Assembly (NCBI GenBank): GCA_947644305.1
Contig: CANRYS010000009.1
Location: 1-64,000 of the forward strand
Direction of reading: 5' to 3'
DNA from: an uncultured Roseburia sp.
Lineage (GTDB): Bacteria; Bacillota; Clostridia; Lachnospirales; Lachnospiraceae
Length of the DNA: 64,000 nt
Shown: piece by piece, positions 37,677 through 48,483 of the stretch
Layout of the letters: every line of letters starts with the position of its first letter
How positions within the stretch are numbered: the stretch's first letter is position 1
Notes under the pieces: generated by a model
What the model saw: only the letters and a program-made list of their open reading frames with translations
The model's database searches: none
Told to the model about the DNA's origin: nothing
Translations under genes and position numbers: made by a program

Positions 37677-40070
37677 TCAAAAAATACTTCTGATTGCTTG
37701 ATATAATAATTGCTCTTCATATTGATCCAAATCATCTGTCATTCTTTGTAAATTATCCCTGACAAACTTTTTTGTCTCATCGGCTCCATATCTAACAAGA
37801 TTTTCATTTCTTTCCTCAATCCTTCTAATAGCATCTACCGGATATCCATATTCTATTAACTGCTCTCCAAAATAACTTTTCACTCCTGTTTCATAAAATC
37901 TTATTACTTTTGAAAGTGAAAAATTTTCTAATACCATATTTTTCATAGAACATGCGTGAACAAAAATACTTTCAAATAGTGCTAACATTTTTGGAATTTT
38001 GTGTTCCAGTATTTCCTTTTGTGTTTTAAATGCCGCCATATATGCATTATCGACTGTTTGAACATTACCATATTTATCCGGGATTTTAGTTCTCTTCAAT
38101 TCATACTTTAATATTCCTACAAATCCTTCTCCACAATAACTTCTACTAATAGCTTTATATCTTTTCATTATTGGTTCTTCTATTAATTTCGCGTTAAAAA
38201 AAATATCTAGGATGGCGTTTATCGCTTGATATTTTGTGAATTGAAGCAATATATCCGCATACTTTGTTTTCTTATAAAATTTATTAAATAATTCTTTATC
38301 ATTCAACAGATAACGCAACAAAGTTTCTTGATTTTCTTTTTTTATCAATCTATTTTTCTGAAACACATTCTCTGGCAATAGATATTCTTTTTGCTTTTCT
38401 ATACGAGTTTCTTTTATCTCTTTATTAGCACTTAAAAGGTCATCCATATTTGCATTATCTATATCAATAGCATCTAACTTTTTCTCACTATATGTAATGA
38501 AATCCAACATCAAATTTTCATTATCTTCAAGTTCTTTTAACTCTTTGTCTACCAAAAAATATCTTCCTATAAAATTATGATAATATCTTCCTGCTCGTCC
38601 TATAATATTTTTTAAATCAAAAGTTGTGAGTGGAACACTTCCCTTTGTATGATTCAATACTACCATATTCTTTGCATCCGTATTAACCCCTTCCACAATT
38701 GTTGAGGTACAAAATAGCAAATCAAATACACCCCGATTAAACAAATCTAATACTTCTTTTTGAATATACTTTGGCAATTTCCCATGATGCATTCCAAAGC
38801 CCTTTTCCAAAACGCTAACAAAACTCCACTCGTTAATTATATTGTAAATATTATAATTTCGCTTTAGATGCCTTAAAAACATCTCAAACTTCTCATCAAT
38901 TATGACTTTTCCCTGATGATTATTGGATAATTCTTTTGCATACTCATTTGCTTTTCCCGGAGTTGTACAATATAATAAAGTGGCACCATATTTCTTATCT
39001 GCTATGTATTTAACAATATCACAAATTCTATCATTCTTTTTTGTGCTTATAGTCTTTGGCTGAGGATTATCCAAATATTCCATTCCTAAATAATTCTCGT
39101 TTATTTTTGTTCCATATGCCTCAACTTGAATGCGCTTTGTAGGTTCAAATTCTATTTCAACCACCGAGATATTGTTATTCTTAATGTATGCTTGCATACC
39201 GTAACCAAATTGCTTTTTCTTTAAATTGGGTCCTGCCAAATAATAATCTTCTACTTGTCTTGAAAGCAAATATAAACAAATACGGAAAGTCTTGGCCCTT
39301 GCCTCATCTAAGAAAGATACACTGCCTTTAAACGTATTTTTCTTATCCTCATCCTCCTGCTCATCCAATTCATCAACACACAAATCTTCATCAATTTTAT
39401 ACATTTCATCATAAAAGAAAAAATCAATTTTTATGTCTGCATAATTTGCAATCAATTGCATTGCTCTTTCAGGAGTAAAAACAAAGATATTTCGTCCTTT
39501 TACATCTATCTCACTATCTATTGATTTTATTACATGATATCCCATTTCACATTCACAATTCATTTCCTCCATATTTAAAGCATTTTCTCTAAGCAAAGCC
39601 ACTGTTGGAAACACTAACAAAACATTTCTGTATTTTTTATGGTTAAGAAATAATATTTCACGCATGATAAATGTTTTTCCATAAGATGTAGGGGCACTAA
39701 CTAACATCCTCCTTTTCTCTAATGACTGGAAATGGTCTATAACATCCTTCTGTGATTTATCCAAAAAATTATTAGGTCTAACTTTCGATCGATATTGTTG
39801 TAAAATTGCGGCATCACTTAACAAACTTATACTTGATGCTGTTATATTAACGGAATTTCCTTTTCTATAAAATCCATTCTGAACATTATATCCAAATACT
39901 CTCATTTTCTGCGATGCGATATATAGAAGTTCTCTAATAACAGGGTCGTCTTTCTGTTTCTCATCATCTGATATTATACATACCAAATCTCTCAATTCCA
40001 TTTTACTTTTATCATCGTTATCATTATAATTATTTATTGCCCTTGATAACAAATTAATGTAATCCTTCAT
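37677..40070 (-). CDS. hamB: HamB-like helicase of a Hachiman defence system
   Basis: This is a 797-residue superfamily 2 helicase. Walker A is APTSYGKT (about 126-133), Walker B DEMY (221-224), and motif VI IIGRAGRYYHN with the preceding TSTIVEGVN. Its start (40070, after GGAGG) lies inside the end of the upstream HamA-like gene. In Hachiman, HamB is a DNA-scanning helicase that holds HamA inactive until phage replication damages DNA. The assignment rests on the DUF1837 partner and the gene order. The gene is clearly AT-richer than the genes outside the island, in keeping with horizontal transfer. Confidence 0.85.
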   Translation of the reverse strand: MKDYINLLSRAINNYNDNDDKSKMELRDLVCIISDDEKQKDDPVIRELLYIASQKMRVFGYNVQNGFYRKGNSVNITASSISLLSDAAILQQYRSKVRPNNFLDKSQKDVIDHFQSLEKRRMLVSAPTSYGKTFIMREILFLNHKKYRNVLLVFPTVALLRENALNMEEMNCECEMGYHVIKSIDSEIDVKGRNIFVFTPERAMQLIANYADIKIDFFFYDEMYKIDEDLCVDELDEQEDEDKKNTFKGSVSFLDEARAKTFRICLYLLSRQVEDYYLAGPNLKKKQFGYGMQAYIKNNNISVVEIEFEPTKRIQVEAYGTKINENYLGMEYLDNPQPKTISTKKNDRICDIVKYIADKKYGATLLYCTTPGKANEYAKELSNNHQGKVIIDEKFEMFLRHLKRNYNIYNIINEWSFVSVLEKGFGMHHGKLPKYIQKEVLDLFNRGVFDLLFCTSTIVEGVNTDAKNMVVLNHTKGSVPLTTFDLKNIIGRAGRYYHNFIGRYFLVDKELKELEDNENLMLDFITYSEKKLDAIDIDNANMDDLLSANKEIKETRIEKQKEYLLPENVFQKNRLIKKENQETLLRYLLNDKELFNKFYKKTKYADILLQFTKYQAINAILDIFFNAKLIEEPIMKRYKAISRSYCGEGFVGILKYELKRTKIPDKYGNVQTVDNAYMAAFKTQKEILEHKIPKMLALFESIFVHACSMKNMVLENFSLSKVIRFYETGVKSYFGEQLIEYGYPVDAIRRIEERNENLVRYGADETKKFVRDNLQRMTDDLDQYEEQLLYQAIRSIF

Positions 40071-41010
40071 AGAAACCTCCATTACCCCTTAACCCCATTA
40101 AGTTTTCAATAGGGAATACAAAAAACAATAAATTGGGCTGAAATCCACTGAAAACATATTTATGCGAATCAAAATATTTTTCTATTCTTTCTATCTCTCT
40201 ATTTATTTGGTCCTCTACATCTGATACACTCTGATAAATACTGTCTTTTCCATATGCTAACAAGCAAGGGATATTAATAGAAATATTTTTCTGTAACAAA
40301 AAATCAACGAATGCTTTTGCTCTATTTTGTTCATTTTGTTCAATTGTAATCATATTTAATTGATTTATTATATCGGTTAATTGTATCCCCTCATCCGATA
40401 AACCTACTTGTTTTTCTGCTATAAAAAATATTTGCTTACTTAAATACTCTGTATCAAACTTTGATGTCAAATCCTGATTTATGCCAGATTTACAGTAAGT
40501 TTCATCGCCCAATTTAGCCTGACCAAGCCATAATGTTATCCGCCCATTTTTATTGGTAAAATAGGTCAAATCATACCCTTTAATCTCATTATTATCATTT
40601 TGTCTGAGTATCGCCCTAACTGCTAACTTATAGGCATCGGGCAAAAGACTTTGTATTAGCAAATCAAACAACACTTCACTCGGCAATCCATCTTGAGTAG
40701 GCATTCTTTTAGGAAGGCGGTTCTTATATGCATATTTTATAGCATTTTCAAGATTAAAAAACAGACCGCTCTTATACTTTTTAACAACCTCTTCTTCCCC
40801 ATAACAGTAAAACACAAGATTTTTTCTCATCAATTCACCAAGTGTTTTATAACAATCATGGGAACAGGCACTACATTTCCCCTTACAATTATGGCTTAAT
40901 GGAACTATAGTCTTTTTATCATCATGTAACGGATAAACAGCTATTTCTGTGTCAAACATATCTTCAATTTGATTTTTGTATATATCTTTATACTCTTTAT
41001 AAATTGCCAT
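40054..41010 (-). CDS. hamA: HamA-like (DUF1837) nuclease of a Hachiman defence system
   Basis: The 318-residue protein matches the DUF1837 pattern. It includes SEVLFDLLIQSLLP (Glu112), KGYDLTYF (Asp147), and LWLGQAKLGD (Gln164, Lys166), a PD-(D/E)xK-like nuclease core with Gln in place of Glu before the Lys. HamA is the effector nuclease of Hachiman, released by HamB upon DNA damage. A cysteine group (Cys42, 46, 49, 53) near the N-terminus suggests a metal site that I do not recall in the family. AAAGGTGAAATA supports the start. The next gene overlaps its 3' end by 17 bases. Confidence 0.82.
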   Translation of the reverse strand: MAIYKEYKDIYKNQIEDMFDTEIAVYPLHDDKKTIVPLSHNCKGKCSACSHDCYKTLGELMRKNLVFYCYGEEEVVKKYKSGLFFNLENAIKYAYKNRLPKRMPTQDGLPSEVLFDLLIQSLLPDAYKLAVRAILRQNDNNEIKGYDLTYFTNKNGRITLWLGQAKLGDETYCKSGINQDLTSKFDTEYLSKQIFFIAEKQVGLSDEGIQLTDIINQLNMITIEQNEQNRAKAFVDFLLQKNISINIPCLLAYGKDSIYQSVSDVEDQINREIERIEKYFDSHKYVFSGFQPNLLFFVFPIENLMGLRGNGGFYEGLH

Positions 41011-41361: not shown

Positions 41362-42240
41362 TTATTGCCCATATATATCTTTTTCTTCTTTACCGACTTC
41401 TGCAACTTCTTCTATTACATTCGTAACAACAGTATTAAGTTCTGCTGCGTTTTTCGATGTGATTACCGATGTGCCTGTTCGAGATTCCACCGCTTTTCTC
41501 GCTTCGGCAGCCGCCTCTCCGCCTGAACGAGCCACTTCCATATTTTCAGCAAAAGTAGAAGGCTTTTCCTGTTTCGATATCTCCGTTGAAGTGGATTCTG
41601 CAAGCATATTCAAAATCAATTCCATATCCGACATATTGTCGCGGAGATTTTCTTTCTTCAACCCTTTGAGATTTTTATACTGTCTCGTACTCATGCCCGA
41701 CCATGCTTTTGTTATCTCATCAGTAAGAATAGCATACTCCCTGCCCTGCTGGACTCCGTTTTTCTGCCATTCATCCGTAAGGGCATTTCTGACACGGATA
41801 GAAAGAATCCTTTGATGAATCCACTCATCACTGTATCCTTTTTTTTGGTATGTATCGAGTGCACGGTCGATTGCCTGTTCCGGGTCAATCGTCTCCTCAA
41901 TTCGCTCTCTTCCAACTTTAGCAAGCCATAGTTTAAACGGTTCTGCCTTTGGTGAAGGAATTGACTGGATGATACGCAAAAGCTGTTCTGTCGTTGTAAC
42001 ATCGGTAATTCTTTTCTTGCCATCTGCTGCGGTCATTTTCAAACCGTGACAATTTGTCACGGTTTCATTTCCCTCTTCCTTCAAACGCTGTTTCAGTTTT
42101 CTCCAATATGCTGCTGGGTCTTTACTTTCCGTAAGCACTGCAACAACATCAACAACAGAAAAATACCATTCCTCTTTTTCTTCGTCCCAAGCGGTTCTGA
42201 TTTTTTGGTCTTCAAAAAGCTGTATGTTATCTTTCCCCAT
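41362..42240 (-). CDS. BRO-N domain protein (phage antirepressor/DinD-like)
   Basis: The 292-residue protein carries an N-terminal BRO-N domain: IRTAWDEEKEEWYFSVVDVV, YWRKLKQRLKEEG, and TEQLLRIIQSIPSPKAEPFKLWLAKVGRERIEE. This occurs in phage antirepressors and in the DNA-damage-inducible DinD group. The C-terminal half is helical and Ala/Glu-rich, with a GGEAAAEARKAVESRTG segment that often follows BRO-N domains in Lachnospiraceae. It probably regulates a nearby mobile element or responds to DNA damage. It is monocistronic. Confidence 0.82.
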   Translation of the reverse strand: MGKDNIQLFEDQKIRTAWDEEKEEWYFSVVDVVAVLTESKDPAAYWRKLKQRLKEEGNETVTNCHGLKMTAADGKKRITDVTTTEQLLRIIQSIPSPKAEPFKLWLAKVGRERIEETIDPEQAIDRALDTYQKKGYSDEWIHQRILSIRVRNALTDEWQKNGVQQGREYAILTDEITKAWSGMSTRQYKNLKGLKKENLRDNMSDMELILNMLAESTSTEISKQEKPSTFAENMEVARSGGEAAAEARKAVESRTGTSVITSKNAAELNTVVTNVIEEVAEVGKEEKDIYGQ

Positions 42241-42540: not shown

Positions 42541-43356
42541 TCACAGCCCCAGCGCGTCCATCTGCTCTCTGATCTCCTCCCCAGTGCGCATGGTATAGAT
42601 CCGCGTCGTCTCCAGGGAATTATGCCCCAGGATATTTGCCAACGCCGTGATATCTCCGCACTTATTGATGTATGTCTTAGCAAAAAAATGGCGGAAGGAG
42701 TGGGGATGCGCCTTTGCCTTGTCCACCCCCGCCCTGTCGGCGATCTTCATAAGCATCTGCCACACAGCGCTGCGGGACAAGACGCTACCTTTCGTTCCGG
42801 TGAAGATAGTCCCCTGGCAGATATCTCTCTGTCGGCAGTACTCCATTAAAAGCTCTTGAAGCCCCGGAGAAATAAAGATCTCCCGGTATTTTCCCTTGTT
42901 GTATACGACTCCACGCCCACGCTTTACATTTTCCACCGTTATATACCTCAGTTCTCCCACCCGTATCCCCGTCCCAGCCAGCACTTTCATTATATAGTAA
43001 TATTTTTCACGCCCTGTCTCCCTGGCATAGTCTAACATCATCCTGTAATCCTCATCGGAAATGACGTTGTCCAGCACAAACATTTTTTTTAGTTTCTTTG
43101 TATGTATTTTCATGTCCTCATTTCCACTCCATTTCAGATAACTGTTAATGGCGATCGCATACAAATTTACCGTAGCTGGTTTATACTGCCTTTTCAACAT
43201 CTCCACATAATGCTCCACCACGCTTCTGTTTTCCGGGTGTTTTCCACAAACCGCCACAAACCGCTGCGCTTGACGTATATAAGTAGAAATTGTACTATTT
43301 GCTTTATCCTCTCCAACCAGGAACTCCCTATACACTTTCATCGTTTTATCTTTCAT
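42541..43356 (-). CDS. Tyrosine recombinase (Xer/phage integrase family)
   Basis: The 271-residue protein has an N-terminal SAM-like domain (about 8-85) and a complete catalytic domain: GTGIRVGEL (Arg), the Lys-containing NKGKYREIFI beta hairpin, HPHSFRHFFA (His-x-x-Arg), LGHNSLETT, and the nucleophile in RIYTM. It looks functional. It lies beyond the terminator of the six-gene operon at 43.5-47.4 kb. It may mobilise this island or resolve DNA. I do not see paired att sites close by. Confidence 0.88.
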   Translation of the reverse strand: MKDKTMKVYREFLVGEDKANSTISTYIRQAQRFVAVCGKHPENRSVVEHYVEMLKRQYKPATVNLYAIAINSYLKWSGNEDMKIHTKKLKKMFVLDNVISDEDYRMMLDYARETGREKYYYIMKVLAGTGIRVGELRYITVENVKRGRGVVYNKGKYREIFISPGLQELLMEYCRQRDICQGTIFTGTKGSVLSRSAVWQMLMKIADRAGVDKAKAHPHSFRHFFAKTYINKCGDITALANILGHNSLETTRIYTMRTGEEIREQMDALGL

Positions 43357-43457
43357 TGTACACGCCCCATTTCTTGACTAAAATGTATAATAACATGAAC
43401 AAAAACCTGCATATTTTCCGTATACTCAAGGTGCATATCTTTTATGACAAAAGCAGG

Positions 43458-43502
43458 AAAAAGGCTGGTACAGCCCTGTTTCTAAACGGCACCAGCCTTT
43501 CT
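43458..43502 (-). terminator. Terminator of the DUF6765-to-CHAP operon
   Basis: On the minus strand AAAGGCTGGT...ACCAGCCTTTTT pairs over 10 bp and ends in T, about 20 bases after the CHAP gene stop codon. Confidence 0.8.
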
Positions 43503-43518
43503 TCCTTACGAATCCCCT

Positions 43519-44019
43519 TTATGTATCATATTTAGGACGTATGATGCACCGGATCAAGCTTGTGCTGCGAGTCCGTTTCATCACCATACCGCCATTGCTG
43601 TTATTCCCAGTACCGGTATTTCCCTCGATCGTTGTATAGGTTCCGTCATTGTTATTCTTTATTATAATCCCTATGTGGCAGGCCCTTCCACTGTGTGTAA
43701 AGTCAAAGATTACAAGATCGCCTTTTTTCCCTTTGCTCTTATTACTGATGGCCAGATGCTTGTTTTTTCCCCAGCTCTCCACAGCAGCACAAAGGGCTGT
43801 TTTCTGCCCGTCATAAAATAATTTAGAAGCTCCGCACATTCGGAACACGTCCCAAACAAAGGCACAGCACCACGGATACGCTGCTCCTTTCACCTCATGT
43901 CCATAATAATGTGTATTAAAAATTACATTATTGCTATTTGCTGGGGACTCTTTTACTCCCTCAAATTTCTTCGCCTGTGCAATGATCATGTCGGGCGTTA
44001 TTTTTTTCTTTTCTCCCAT
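43519..44019 (-). CDS. CHAP-domain hydrolase (NlpC/P60-like fold)
   Basis: The 166-residue protein is essentially one CHAP domain. The catalytic Cys is in AYPWCCAFVWD (about residue 51), the His is in CHIGIIIK, and an acidic residue follows in IEGNTGTG. CHAP enzymes are amidases or endopeptidases acting on peptidoglycan or peptides. There is no signal peptide or membrane helix, so it must act inside the cell, leave by lysis, or use another protein for export. AAGGAGGAGAAGC gives a strong start. It overlaps the upstream membrane-protein gene by 59 bases and ends the operon. Confidence 0.85.
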   Translation of the reverse strand: MGEKKKITPDMIIAQAKKFEGVKESPANSNNVIFNTHYYGHEVKGAAYPWCCAFVWDVFRMCGASKLFYDGQKTALCAAVESWGKNKHLAISNKSKGKKGDLVIFDFTHSGRACHIGIIIKNNNDGTYTTIEGNTGTGNNSNGGMVMKRTRSTSLIRCIIRPKYDT

Positions 44020-44575
44020 GCTTCTCCTCCTTTTTCTTTTTCAGTCTCTTTCCCTCTTCCTGCTCCTCTTCGATCGGGGCAATATCGTCTTCCTGTCTTT
44101 TCAGTTCCAGTTGGGACCAGCCCTCATTTTCCTTTGCGGCGATATCTTCTATCTTCTCAAGAAAATTGCTGTCCCGCAACTCAGGATCACTGTAATCCCC
44201 GATCTCCGCCATGTAATAAACCGCCTCGCATTTAATCTGTTCAGTACAACTGCGGTACCCCACTGATTTTTCATGCCACTTGTAAAGGCTCCCGAGTCCA
44301 TTGGCGATGGCGGCGACAGCAGAAATAACCGAAATCGTAACTTTACAGAAAACATGCATCCCTTCAAAATCCTGAATATCATTAAATACAATGACAAATG
44401 TGGGAAGAATAAGCCCAAGCAAACTGATTACATGATAGCGGAATTTATATTTGTGGTACATAACCATGTACCATTCCAGGCTTCCAAGAAGGCACCTTCT
44501 TACGTAATCGTCAGTGACGTATTCATCCACCATATCCAGAAATTCCATATCGTTGTTATAACTAAAACTTCTCAT
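43961..44575 (-). CDS. Two-helix membrane protein, DUF4231/SLATT-like
   Basis: The 204-residue protein has two adjacent membrane helices (about 51-70 and 78-102). They are followed by the typical SLATT/DUF4231 block LYKWHEKSVGYRSCTEQIKCEAVYYMAEIGDY, here given only by its key residues Trp, Tyr-Arg and Glu. The C-terminal 60 residues are highly charged (Glu/Lys/Arg). SLATT proteins are predicted pore-forming effectors in phage-defence and conflict systems. AAAGGAAAT sets the start at 44575; the longer frame to 44626 overlaps the gene before it. Confidence 0.7.
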   Translation of the reverse strand: MRSFSYNNDMEFLDMVDEYVTDDYVRRCLLGSLEWYMVMYHKYKFRYHVISLLGLILPTFVIVFNDIQDFEGMHVFCKVTISVISAVAAIANGLGSLYKWHEKSVGYRSCTEQIKCEAVYYMAEIGDYSDPELRDSNFLEKIEDIAAKENEGWSQLELKRQEDDIAPIEEEQEEGKRLKKKKEEKHGRKEKNNARHDHCTGEEI

Positions 44576-44610
44576 AACATTTCCTTTCGTTGTAACATCT
44601 GCAGAGCGTG

Positions 44611-44877
44611 TCAGTGCGCTAACCATGGAGGCTTTCTGGCGAAGCCCACATGGTACACCACATACTGCATGACCACTTGATGTTCCCCGATGTTTAGGAT
44701 ATAAAAATTTTTCTCCTGGGCGATGATCTTCCCTTTCGGGAACTCATTCAAACAACGGTTCAAAAGCTCCGTCTGCTTCCTGTAATGCTCTTCATCCGGC
44801 TGTTTTTCCGGATTGTCGTTACCCACTATGATCCGGTGAACGTACCCTACATCCGCCACAGAAAATGTCTCCGCCAT
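44611..44877 (-). CDS. Small unknown protein of the DUF6765 operon
   Basis: The 88-residue protein begins MAETFSVADVGYVHRIIVGND and has alternating strand-like segments (KIIAQEKNFYILNIGEHQVVMQYV). No family is recognised. GGAGGGATTGT sets the start at 44877, 31 bases after the DUF2589 gene. It has no signal peptide or membrane helix. The tight position in the operon suggests a regulator, adaptor or immunity-type role, but nothing in the sequence proves it. Confidence 0.65.
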   Translation of the reverse strand: MAETFSVADVGYVHRIIVGNDNPEKQPDEEHYRKQTELLNRCLNEFPKGKIIAQEKNFYILNIGEHQVVMQYVVYHVGFARKPPWLAH

Positions 44878-44908
44878 ACAATCCCTCCATTTGCGCCTCA
44901 TTTACTTA

Positions 44909-45640
44909 TTAATTCTTACCGGAATGTCCGCCGGACGAGCCTCCTGATGTACTGCTGCCCGATGAACCGCCGCTGGATGTGCCACTTCCTGGCGTCGTAC
45001 CACCCGTTGTGCTGCCCGCCTTGTTGTCAGGTATCCTTTCATTTTTCACTGCCTCGATCTGAGCCGGTGCACTTGCTGTGGAAAGAATATCCAGCACCTT
45101 AGCCAGTCCCTCCGGCATTCCCGAATCCTTGGCATGCACTTCTACATGATACTTCGCTGAATTATCGCTCTTCCTCGTATTGCTCTCATGAGCAGAAACA
45201 GAACCCTTTATGCTCACATCTGCGCTAAAGGGGCCAAGTTTCAAGCCCATCTTGGCATCCAGTGATCCCGACTTATCGGAAGTCTTTTCACTGCTGACAG
45301 AAGATTTTACCTCCATATCAAAAGTCACATTGACATCGTCTACTGAGAGGGCAGGTATCTTCACAATAGATAAGAGGGGAACGCTTAAATTTACCTTTTC
45401 CATGCCGATTCCATTTCCATCTCCCGCCGTAGACGGTCTTTGGAAAGAAAAATCTACCGTTCTTACCTTTCTAACCCCACTGGCATCCACATCATCCATA
45501 CCCACATGCTGGATAAAATCAGATGTCGCTTTTGCCATCATGATCTGGGCGTCGCACGCCGCTTTCAACGGCCCGCCGATCAATGCTCCCATGTCCAGTC
45601 CACTGAACTGATCCTGCATCTTCACCAATTCATCTGCCAT
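44909..45640 (-). CDS. DUF2589 protein, long paralogue
   Basis: The 243-residue protein starts with the DUF2589 signature: a short amphipathic region with LIGGPLKAACDAQ and ATSDFIQ. A beta-rich core follows (VPLLSIVKIPALSVDDVNVTFDM) with alternating hydrophobic strands. The C-terminal 35 residues are a Gly/Ser/Thr tail. DUF2589 proteins usually come in pairs and have no known function. GGAGGCTATT sets the start at 45640. It lies about 70 bases after the shorter paralogue. Confidence 0.82.
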   Translation of the reverse strand: MADELVKMQDQFSGLDMGALIGGPLKAACDAQIMMAKATSDFIQHVGMDDVDASGVRKVRTVDFSFQRPSTAGDGNGIGMEKVNLSVPLLSIVKIPALSVDDVNVTFDMEVKSSVSSEKTSDKSGSLDAKMGLKLGPFSADVSIKGSVSAHESNTRKSDNSAKYHVEVHAKDSGMPEGLAKVLDILSTASAPAQIEAVKNERIPDNKAGSTTGGTTPGSGTSSGGSSGSSTSGGSSGGHSGKN

Positions 45641-45710
45641 AATAGCCTCCTTTCCTGCACATATACCTGTGCATATCATTATTTATAGAAAAGACTCTCC
45701 CACCAACCCA

Positions 45711-46193
45711 CTACAGCGATACCCGAATGAGCTCGTCCTGAATGCGCATGATCCCCTCCGGGGGATCCTGGGAAGTAAACTGTAACGTGATATTAGCAAA
45801 ATCCTCCGAATTTCTTTTGACCCCTCCACCTGGAAGATAACCGAGATAAGAACGTCCCCTTTTGTCCGTTCCGTTTTCAGCGTCTTCGCCTGCCTTTTCT
45901 TTAAGTGCAACCTCCCCCGTAAGCTTAACTTTAAAATCTACTTTGATTCCGTCCAGTTTCAGTGATGATATGGGAACAAGGCACAGTTTGGGAATGGATA
46001 CATCTTTATACGTTACATTTCCACTGTCATCGAACTGAGGCATACTAAGAGGTATACTAACTGGTTTATTCTCCGAATCAAAGAATCCCGATAACATTTC
46101 GATATGTTGTTTCTCTGCGAGTCGGCTGCACTGCAAAAAAGACTTCTGGATAGCCGCTACTAATTCATCAAAATTCTGCTGTCTCACTCTCAT
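45711..46193 (-). CDS. DUF2589-like protein, short paralogue
   Basis: The protein of about 160 residues opens with an amphipathic helix (NFDELVAAIQKSFLQCSRL) and has a beta-rich core containing the same pattern as its neighbour: LCLVPISSLKLDGIKVDFKVKLTGEVAL. A strand-rich C-terminus follows (ITLQFTSQDPPEG). It lacks the Gly/Ser tail of the long paralogue. The start is either ATG at 46193 or GTG at 46187, both near GGAG. It sits between the DUF6765 gene and the long DUF2589 gene. Confidence 0.72.
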   Translation of the reverse strand: MRVRQQNFDELVAAIQKSFLQCSRLAEKQHIEMLSGFFDSENKPVSIPLSMPQFDDSGNVTYKDVSIPKLCLVPISSLKLDGIKVDFKVKLTGEVALKEKAGEDAENGTDKRGRSYLGYLPGGGVKRNSEDFANITLQFTSQDPPEGIMRIQDELIRVSL

Positions 46194-46279
46194 TACTCCT
46201 TTCGGACTGCTCTTGTACAGCCGGGCGGCATCGCCCCGGCGCACCGGCAGAAAAGTCTGTTTCTAACCCATTTAAACTT

Positions 46280-47425
46280 TTAATACTTCCCTGTCACAAT
46301 TCTTCTCAGTTCATAGGTCGCCTGATTGAACAGATAAAAAATAATTTCATTTTCAAAACGATAAATCGGAACACCATTCACATTTCCCGCCACTGCCTGT
46401 CCAAATAAACTCTGAGTACTGTACTCAAGCCAGGCCATCTTATCCTGATCATGGAAATAATTTGCCGCCCATACTGCTGCAAGTTCCTCGGCATGGGTTA
46501 CATCATCCATCTCACTGGTGATAAGACATGCCGTCTCCATAAGGGGCTCCCTAATCTGGTTCCATCTGGCTGCGGTTTGATCCTGTGCCCTGGACAGCTT
46601 CATAAACCACTCAAAAATATACTTTGCGCACTGCTCGAACACAATGCGGTTACAACGGCATTTTTCCTTGGAAAAATCATCATTTTCCTGGGCCTTATAC
46701 CGATACCAGAAGGTGGCGCTGCATACATCCGGCAAATGTGCTAACTGCCCATGCCCGCATGCAGTAAGACTTCCAAGACGGTCTGAAAAATGCTCGATCC
46801 CCTCCCGTCCTCTCTCCTGAAGCCCCGCATCGAAAATATTGATGATCTTTGCCTCGTTTTCCCATCCCAGAGAGCCACTGAAACCATCATGGGCGAAAGT
46901 GTCTGCAAACACGTGAAGAAGCATTCCGAATTGAACTAAGTCCCCAAGTCTCTTCGAGTCATCCCCCGCTTCCTGGTCTTGAACCATACTGTCTACGATA
47001 GCATCAATGGCGTTATACAGATAACTTCCCCGCAATGCCGGCTTTGTCCGCAGAATACTGCGGTCCTCTGGATTCTCTGTATAATTTTTCACAAAAAAAT
47101 GGAAAGGCGTCACACTTTCGAGCTGGTGGAATTCTTTTCTCGCATCCAGCAGTCCAAATGATGTGATGGAAGGCAGGAATTCATAATAATGGTCCCCTGC
47201 CTCCCCTACCATGGCATTTTCCTGAAAATATTTCGGGGGTTGGTTTTCTACATAGATTTTCAGCATCTTTCCCTTCTGCGTCGGAAACTGCTCTCCTTTG
47301 AAAAAATCCGGTGTCACATCGTCCACCATCTGGGAAGTCAGCGCTATGATCTGTGCCTCATCCTCACTTAATCCTGCCTCGATCGCCATGGCTTTAACCA
47401 AATAATAATGAAAATTAATGTTCAT
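46280..47425 (-). CDS. DUF6765 protein, predicted metal-dependent hydrolase
   Basis: The 381-residue protein has the DUF6765 N-terminus (NFHYYLVKAMAIEAGLSEDEA followed by SQMVDD). A central block, LLHVFADTFAHDGFSG, has His and Asp spaced as in zinc phospholipase C and S1/P1 nuclease folds. A second His/Asp set lies near the C-terminus (EMDDVTHAEEL). This suggests a mainly helical, metal-dependent hydrolase of lipid or nucleic-acid phosphodiesters; that is inference. AGAGGAGAG precedes the start. It is the first gene of a six-gene operon with DUF2589, SLATT-like and CHAP proteins. Confidence 0.78.
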   Translation of the reverse strand: MNINFHYYLVKAMAIEAGLSEDEAQIIALTSQMVDDVTPDFFKGEQFPTQKGKMLKIYVENQPPKYFQENAMVGEAGDHYYEFLPSITSFGLLDARKEFHQLESVTPFHFFVKNYTENPEDRSILRTKPALRGSYLYNAIDAIVDSMVQDQEAGDDSKRLGDLVQFGMLLHVFADTFAHDGFSGSLGWENEAKIINIFDAGLQERGREGIEHFSDRLGSLTACGHGQLAHLPDVCSATFWYRYKAQENDDFSKEKCRCNRIVFEQCAKYIFEWFMKLSRAQDQTAARWNQIREPLMETACLITSEMDDVTHAEELAAVWAANYFHDQDKMAWLEYSTQSLFGQAVAGNVNGVPIYRFENEIIFYLFNQATYELRRIVTGKY

Positions 47426-47472
47426 GTTATTCTCTCCTCTCTTGCGTTGCTTGCTACAAACTTTTTCCCGGC

Positions 47473-47652: not shown

Positions 47653-48483
47653 CTACTTAGCCTGACGGTGCCAGCCTTTTTGCGCCGCGTGTTTGAGGGC
47701 GAAGCTGGCGATAAGACAAATCCCAAAAGAGAGTAGTCCGTACTGTATATGAAGCAGCTTTGTCTGGATCTCATTCTCTTCTGTGATCACCACCTCCTTA
47801 TTTTCAATCCCATACCCCATTTTTCTTAACTGTTCTACATGAAGCCCATCCAGGTCGTGCTTGTCAAACAACACCCTCAGACTAAAAGCCTCTTTTAGCA
47901 ATCGCCCCTCTGCTTCGGCAGTACATGCCAGGGCTTTCTCATCCTGCCCATCGTCTTTCGCCACGATCAGCTTCGCCGACTTATAACTCTCTGCCACGGA
48001 ATAGCGGATATCCACCCCGGTACTGCTAGCTGCCAGCTTCAGACTTTCTACATCCGTCAAATCCTCATTCTCTTCTGAGATCCCCTGCAACATCTCAGAA
48101 AATGCCGTCTCATTCATATAAATCCGCTTTGTGCCAATGGGAAGTTTTATATCAAACAATTTCTCCATATAGTCCTGAGACAGAAGATTGCAGTTGATCA
48201 CGGCGCTCATTCCCCGGTACATCACCGTGATGGAAACTTCCATCTGACGACTCACTCCTGCCACATCCCCCATCTGCGCCAGTTCATCCATCCGTTTTTG
48301 GGAAATCGTCCCCTCTCCCGTCAGCACATATTCCGCCGGCGTATTGACAAAACGGTAGATATCCCATGTATGGTATATCACGCTGGCAAAAAAAGCAGCT
48401 GCTGCCAATGCAAAAAGACAGATCACCTTTACCGTATCGCTCTGTTTTCTAAGTCTTAGAAAGCCACGGATCTTATTATTCAT
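47653..48483 (-). CDS. Membrane protein of the ABC/two-component cluster
   Basis: The 276-residue protein has one N-terminal membrane helix (about 19-40), an external domain of about 200 residues, and a C-terminal helix (about 246-266). The shape resembles the external domain of a MacB/FtsX-type protein without its permease bundle. No catalytic motif is seen. It overlaps the repeat-protein gene upstream by 8 bases and is the last gene of the operon. Function unknown; a partner of the ABC complex is likely from context. Confidence 0.65.
   Translation of the reverse strand: MNNKIRGFLRLRKQSDTVKVICLFALAAAAFFASVIYHTWDIYRFVNTPAEYVLTGEGTISQKRMDELAQMGDVAGVSRQMEVSITVMYRGMSAVINCNLLSQDYMEKLFDIKLPIGTKRIYMNETAFSEMLQGISEENEDLTDVESLKLAASSTGVDIRYSVAESYKSAKLIVAKDDGQDEKALACTAEAEGRLLKEAFSLRVLFDKHDLDGLHVEQLRKMGYGIENKEVVITEENEIQTKLLHIQYGLLSFGICLIASFALKHAAQKGWHRQAK

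Follow-up and report, generated by a model that had tools for sequence, protein, structure and literature searches.

The window analysed here, a 64,000-nucleotide stretch of DNA from an uncultured Roseburia sp., carries a minus-strand operon of six genes, which encode a DUF6765 protein, two DUF2589 proteins (A and B), a small protein of an unnamed family (U), a SLATT/DUF4231 membrane protein and a CHAP peptidoglycan hydrolase. With a probability of roughly 0.55, this operon represents an allele of a so far undescribed toxin locus that moves horizontally, in which a constant A-B-U part is combined with an exchangeable hydrolase, an exchangeable toxin-like enzyme or both. The recurrence of the core beside a wall-cutting or a changing toxin-like enzyme suggests an unrecognised route of toxin release or delivery. 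A preliminary description had presented all six genes as a single system, which proved too strong, as the conserved unit is A-B-U alone. Among 90 loci, A was found in 89 and U in 84, whereas relatives of DUF6765 and SLATT occurred in only five (the window and L060-L063). Co-occurrence of the genes in other genomes, whose lack would have refuted that description, was strong for A-B-U and absent for DUF6765 and SLATT beyond near relatives.

Occurrence and gene order of the core

A search of genome contigs with B as the bait gave 261 relatives, 80 of which were kept, and a few further loci came from plasmids, from Lachnospiraceae-like genomes of the window's family and from one IMG/VR contig. The duplicates L139, L146 and L066, the viral contigs L140-L145 and the divergent DUF2589 loci L050-L053, L057 and L058 were removed. 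The resulting 90 loci still include close relatives (59 clusters at 90% B identity). Genes were called as the longest open reading frame (ORF), and several contigs were short.

Neither A nor U had served as bait, and the counts given above held after clustering by B: A was present in 59/59 and U in 55/59 clusters at 90% identity, and in 29/29 and 26/29, respectively, at 70%. U was encoded on the same strand as B in all 84 loci and came after it at a distance of no more than 300 bp in 70, the median gap being 20 bp, while the best-scoring A stood directly before B in 60 of 89 loci. In Burkholderiales-type loci U lies ahead of B, and two Amycolatopsis loci have A and B with U absent. The match to U in Eubacterium callanderi (L150/L067) contains an in-frame TAG, which may mark a broken copy or a sequencing error. 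The reverse search with U found B adjoining in 13 of 13 loci, nine of them in genomes picked for holding B; the remaining four, one of them a further copy in G701 and the others from three genomes, were independent.

The core was found in Bacillota, Pseudomonadota, Thermodesulfobacteriota and Bacteroidota as well as on plasmids, with relatives of B in, for example, gut Bacillota, Xanthomonas and sulfate-reducing bacteria, and its joint recurrence across phyla exceeds chance. It is rare, and its distribution is patchy. Of 397 genomes of the window's family, 10 carried DUF2589, which all 14 well-known control genomes lacked. Among 299 Pseudomonadota genomes U turned up in four, including one picked beforehand, and within the window's own genus B was seen in 10 of 39 genomes, once weakly. 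The B tree was ordered mostly by phylum, with the Vibrionaceae and two Amycolatopsis copies in or beside the Bacillota part. The locus may be mobile in a sense that goes beyond this patchy spread.

Sequence properties of A, B and U

A and B are paralogues (hhalign probability 97.7%, E 1.9e-12) and matched PF11655 with 65.2 and 156.2 bits, respectively, at a cut-off of 23. The B of the window is about 50% identical to that of distant phyla, which points to strong selection. B varies in length between about 200 and 410 aa, with C-terminal extensions that by eye resemble coiled coil or linker. U, an 88-residue unknown in the preliminary description, matched nothing in Pfam, PADLOC, PHROGs or NCBIfam at E values up to 1, and 11 members of the U family were likewise without a credible Pfam match. 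Sequence searches of the PDB gave nothing related to B and insignificant best matches for U and A (1.6 and 0.097). The VIA list for B was too weak for naming a fold, and the absence of other folds from that list proves nothing. A ring-building fold of the FliF/MS-ring type was considered for B. A, B and U of the window have no hydrophobic segments; among the six operon proteins only SLATT has segments above the threshold (two).

Hydrolases and toxin-like enzymes near the core

A peptidoglycan hydrolase of phage type was encoded no more than 4 kb from B in 64 of the 90 loci (63 on B's strand) compared with 3 of 90 at 5-9 kb (685,471 and 601,547 bases examined), a contrast that, like the one for toxin-like genes, is partly circular because the hydrolase and toxin seeds were drawn from genes near B. 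The other 26 loci had no recognised hydrolase. The enzymes belong to at least six Pfam families, namely CHAP (window, L059-L063), Amidase_2 (e.g. L074, L077), GH19 (L105 and others), GH108 with PG_binding_3 (L127 and others), Phage_lysozyme (L079, L049) and Glucosaminidase (L124). An enzyme linked to PG_binding_1 was found in L091 and others.

Toxin-like enzymes, DUF6765 included, were recognised in 21 of the 90 loci. These were a TcdA/TcdB-type glycosyltransferase between B and U (TcdA_TcdB; L071, L124), Patatin (L077, L111), Exo_endo_phos (L072, and L076 by sequence reading), WHH/Colicin-DNase (L068, with a relative in L070), EndoU (L110, with relatives in six more loci), Peptidase_C58 accompanied by a jacalin lectin gene (L128), and DUF6765 (window, L060-L063). 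In a tally of the 25 commonest Pfam families among 144 deduplicated genes per set (144 of 158 near and 144 of 296 distant), Amidase_2 was counted four times and Phage_lysozyme, Patatin, Jacalin and C58 twice each among the near genes; all five were missing from the top 25 families of the distant genes. The window's genus alone holds at least three cargo sets: DUF6765-SLATT-CHAP, the glycosyltransferase with a glucosaminidase or amidase, and an amidase alone. Varied toxin domains thus occur at one type of locus in related genomes, as in polymorphic toxin systems.

Further genes were noted in these neighbourhoods. A small gene after EndoU, considered as a possible immunity gene, had no credible Pfam match, a membrane protein of no assigned kind (cluster 6) was found in 11 loci, and small secreted or lipoprotein-like genes (clusters 17 and 19) near some loci were not identified as spanins. 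In L046 (5677-6926, minus strand) a jacalin lectin gene (4.4e-16) follows a gene for a 198-aa protein without a Pfam match, whose resemblance to an ADP-ribosyltransferase was noted by eye and is unverified.

The allele of the window

The features of the operon and its surroundings are listed in Table 1. All six reading frames were found as originally described, each starting with ATG, and the family names, the 59 bases shared by the SLATT and CHAP genes (44019 to 43961), and the Hachiman and recombinase neighbours were borne out as well. The promoter hexamers can be read in the sequence, but the consensus scan did not list them because its rule requires T at position 6, and promoter-like sites as a whole were at chance level (11 found, 11.5 expected). 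The hairpin and T-run of the terminator are likewise readable, but at 43502-43458 the scan listed just a short stem on the opposite strand.

Table 1. Positions of the operon genes and of neighbouring features in the window
Feature	Position (strand)	Length	Profile matches	Remarks
DUF6765 protein	46280..47425 (-)	381 aa	PF20551 8.7e-40	Candidate zinc-phospholipase-C-like cargo enzyme
Core gene A, DUF2589	45711..46193 (-)	160 aa	PF11655 1.1e-17	
Core gene B, DUF2589	44909..45640 (-)	243 aa	PF11655 1.1e-45	More conserved of the two DUF2589 proteins
Core gene U, unnamed family	44611..44877 (-)	88 aa	No profile match	
DUF4231/SLATT two-helix membrane protein	43961..44575 (-)		PF14015 1.8e-10; NF033634 (SLATT, NCBIfam) 5e-17	Frame open from 44626
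CHAP peptidoglycan hydrolase	43519..44019 (-)		PF05257 6.8e-11; phrog_21357 endolysin 1.3e-39	Phage-endolysin type
Promoter-like TTAACA-17-TATAAA	47473..47501 (-)			Putative; read in the sequence
Terminator-like hairpin and T-run	43458..43502 (-)			Read in the sequence
Inverted repeat I1	43389-43412 and 47408-47431	24 nt		79%; imperfect; best pair of the region, at the operon ends
String AAGGCTGG[T/C][G/A]CCGT	43486-43499 and 47665-47678 (-)			On both sides of the operon, same orientation
Tyrosine-recombinase-like gene	42541..43356 (-)			Outside the core; accompanies the locus in many Bacillota
Gene between Hachiman and recombinase	41362-42240 (-)		PDC-S13 7.2e-137	Strong match to a candidate defence model
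Hachiman-like pair	37677-41010 (-)		HamB 5.7e-97; HamA 7.4e-17 (PADLOC)	Past the recombinase

DUF6765 matched PF20551 with 137.7 bits (cut-off 26.6). The residues H6, D35, D36, H109, H171, D175, H179, H225 and D233 showed at least 93% conservation across 18 sequences. A match to PF00882 (Zn_dep_PLPC) stayed below the cut-off (14.1 bits, cut-off 26.8; E 0.045) and was confined to profile positions 82-98 of 167, where the H-x3-D-x3-H stretch resembles zinc phospholipase C. The protein is probably a metal-dependent phospholipase-C-like lipid hydrolase. DUF6765 was also tried as an anchor for the locus and rejected. It was present in 16 of 299 genomes of the phylum, and 13 full-length or nearly full-length relatives (L001-L012, L017) scored far below the window group; no relatives of A, B or U were found in about 1.5 kb searched on each side of these.

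A near-identical allele in L059 and its twin L173 matched the window contiguously except for two missing pieces. The first (window 46274-47441) comprises DUF6765 and its leader, the second (43999-44528) most of SLATT and the first CHAP codons. The allele keeps A, B, U and the remainder of CHAP. That DUF6765 and most of SLATT are missing together, beside a retained CHAP, indicates that SLATT goes with DUF6765 and not with CHAP. This speaks against the membrane-and-wall-attacking pair of SLATT and CHAP proposed in the preliminary description and makes SLATT a probable partner or immunity gene of DUF6765. L174 (genome G1003) has the same flanks around CHAP and the recombinase only, with DUF6765, A, B, U and SLATT absent.

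A cassette flipped by the recombinase was considered in view of the inverted repeat I1. The 12-base core shared by its arms was kept at both ends in none of nine relative loci, and the repeat was therefore taken as chance. The string repeated on both sides of the operon may also be due to chance or be related to the terminator.

Neighbouring recombinase and defence genes

The family of the tyrosine-recombinase-like gene recurred in 15 of the 100 loci clustered. Reading of the sequence beyond the recombinase in two close relatives of the window showed an ABC transporter in L059 and a methylase-like gene in L060; Hachiman was not at that spot as far as read. Since the window, L059 and L060 differ there, the spot may be a defence hotspot. 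The methylase-like gene of L060 and its neighbour, located about 3.4-5.5 kb after B, perhaps form a restriction-modification system.

Viral and divergent DUF2589 loci

A divergent A-B pair of DUF2589 genes was present in six of six viral contigs found with A1 (L140-L145), the L022 contig excepted, and L140 also had a terminase large subunit (TerL) nearby. U was not found in these six contigs or in the six divergent loci L050-L053, L057 and L058. The divergent loci L050, L058 and L192, whose neighbours were recognised by reading the sequence or through a seed match as lectin-like or muramidase/lysozyme-like genes, possibly represent a sister system. A viral origin of L022 (IMG/VR contig 2831471034) was rejected: its B is identical to the Roseateles aquatilis copy L083, and the contig may therefore be bacterial.

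Proposed mechanism and alternative explanations

In the proposed toxin locus, A, B and U would be the constant machinery, around which most loci have a hydrolase of phage-endolysin type, a changeable toxin-like enzyme or both, at times along with a partner gene. In the window these parts would be played by CHAP as the hydrolase, DUF6765 as the toxin-like enzyme and SLATT as its membrane partner, most likely for self-protection. The paralogues A and B would co-assemble, with U as a cap or adaptor, and the assembly would take cytoplasmic cargo devoid of a signal peptide across the membrane or carry it outside. The endolysin would open the wall, so that the producer releases the cargo or a particle delivers it. 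A more specific form of this model is tentative: the A-B-U set could be the minimal apparatus of a new protein export or delivery system of phage ancestry that serves unrelated plug-and-play toxins in several phyla. A and B would then form a mixed ring or barrel, their long hairpins rich in S, T and G a channel or spike, and U a gate or cargo adaptor, and the co-encoded endolysin would be the means of getting through the wall.

A possible, though not favoured, alternative is release by altruistic lysis, in the manner of type 10 secretion or of a colicin lysis gene. A-B-U would open the membrane or set the timing, the endolysin would reach the wall, and the cargo would spill from the cell. The excerpt of PMC10847048 describes such a precedent in the type 10 secretion system (T10SS), in which an endolysin, a holin and spanins free toxins by lysis. 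The likeness lies in the phage-type endolysin beside a toxin-like cargo (CHAP of phrog_21357 in the window, other hydrolase families in relatives). No signal peptide and no hydrophobic segment above the threshold were seen in CHAP, and the hydrolases of the relatives that were read also lack a signal peptide; the TcdA/TcdB-type glycosyltransferase beside a glucosaminidase or amidase fits as well. The locus differs from that system in having two DUF2589 proteins and U in place of a recognised holin or spanin. Neither Pfam nor PHROGs gave a holin match for the six operon proteins, the relatives not having been scanned for holins one by one, and the sole membrane protein of the six is SLATT with its few relatives. 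Lysis is also at odds with the lack of hydrophobic segments in A, B and U of the window, with the EndoU of Pseudomonas, which on sequence reading appears to carry its own signal peptide, and with the 26 loci devoid of a recognised hydrolase.

An anti-phage or abortive-infection function, in which A-B-U would be the infection sensor that sets off an intracellular effector, be it one aimed at the membrane or wall, a nuclease or a lipase, is unlikely. Patatin, HNH and SLATT double as defence effectors, Hachiman adjoins the operon in the window, and L060 has its methylase-like gene at the same spot. However, PADLOC gave no family for any of the six operon proteins and no match for four neighbour genes from L064, L068, L076 and L077. 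Lectins, the TcdA/TcdB-type glycosyltransferase and the C58 protease typify exported toxins rather than known defence, and viral contigs themselves carry A-B pairs. The earlier suggestion of an undescribed conflict-type module is upheld, the relatives coming close to its "contact-toxin module", whereas its defence or abortive-infection variant found no support in PADLOC.

It is similarly improbable that the operon is a remnant or domesticated phage module, in which drift and hitch-hiking have left A-B, as a structural or lysis pair, together with an endolysin and moron genes. The viral A-B pairs, the TerL of L140 and the endolysin-like hydrolase would agree with such an origin. On the other hand, no capsid, tail or terminase gene was noticed beside the cellular loci read or among the top 25 Pfam families of the near genes, and the viral contigs carrying the divergent pair yielded no U. 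The strong selection on B between phyla, and the retention of A-B-U while the neighbours change, also argue against this explanation.

The least probable explanation, that A-B-U serves the envelope or housekeeping and owes its hydrolase and toxin neighbours to a shared insertion hotspot, would suit the patchy distribution, the recombinase at many sites and the CHAP retained in L174 without A-B-U, but hydrolases and toxin-like genes cluster within 4 kb of B, nearly all on B's strand and in several phyla, and U is rare in Pseudomonadota.

Relation to described systems

Around a constant part, the proposed toxin locus exchanges EndoU, HNH, lipase, protease and glycosyltransferase domains like the polymorphic toxin systems of TANFOR and LXG type, as far as the excerpts of PMC7073777 and PMC5555719 describe them. 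Compared with these excerpts, the toxins here are separate genes with no common N-terminal delivery domain noticed, the constant part consists of three genes, and the most frequent partner is a wall hydrolase. A fused constant N-terminal trafficking domain was not found, cargo and core being separate ORFs in the loci inspected.

According to the excerpt of PMC3949148, DUF2589 (PF11655) includes AF0414-AF0417 of Archaeoglobus fulgidus, with no function given; A and B share this family, and that excerpt describes no U or cargo pairing. In the open-licence PMC, DUF2589 appeared in one paper, and DUF6765 and PF11655 were unmentioned. The excerpts of the polymorphic-toxin and type 10 secretion literature there contained no description of an A-B-U set.

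The two-helix protein of the window fits the NCBIfam SLATT model and in this resembles the SLATT/DUF4231 effectors reportedly described by Burroughs and Aravind. It differs from them in its setting, as none of the six genes is a nucleotide-second-messenger or SLOG gene and the partner is DUF6765.

Because a T10SS holin, a fused constant domain and a PADLOC match were all lacking and the literature is sparse, this kind of locus is considered new, although its components act in the manner of toxin and lysis modules already known. If the proposed reading is correct, the A-B-U core would give a handle on antagonism by bacteria without known secretion machines. It would also provide a context for DUF2589, for DUF6765 and for a family unrecognised by Pfam, and would serve as bait for finding new toxins.

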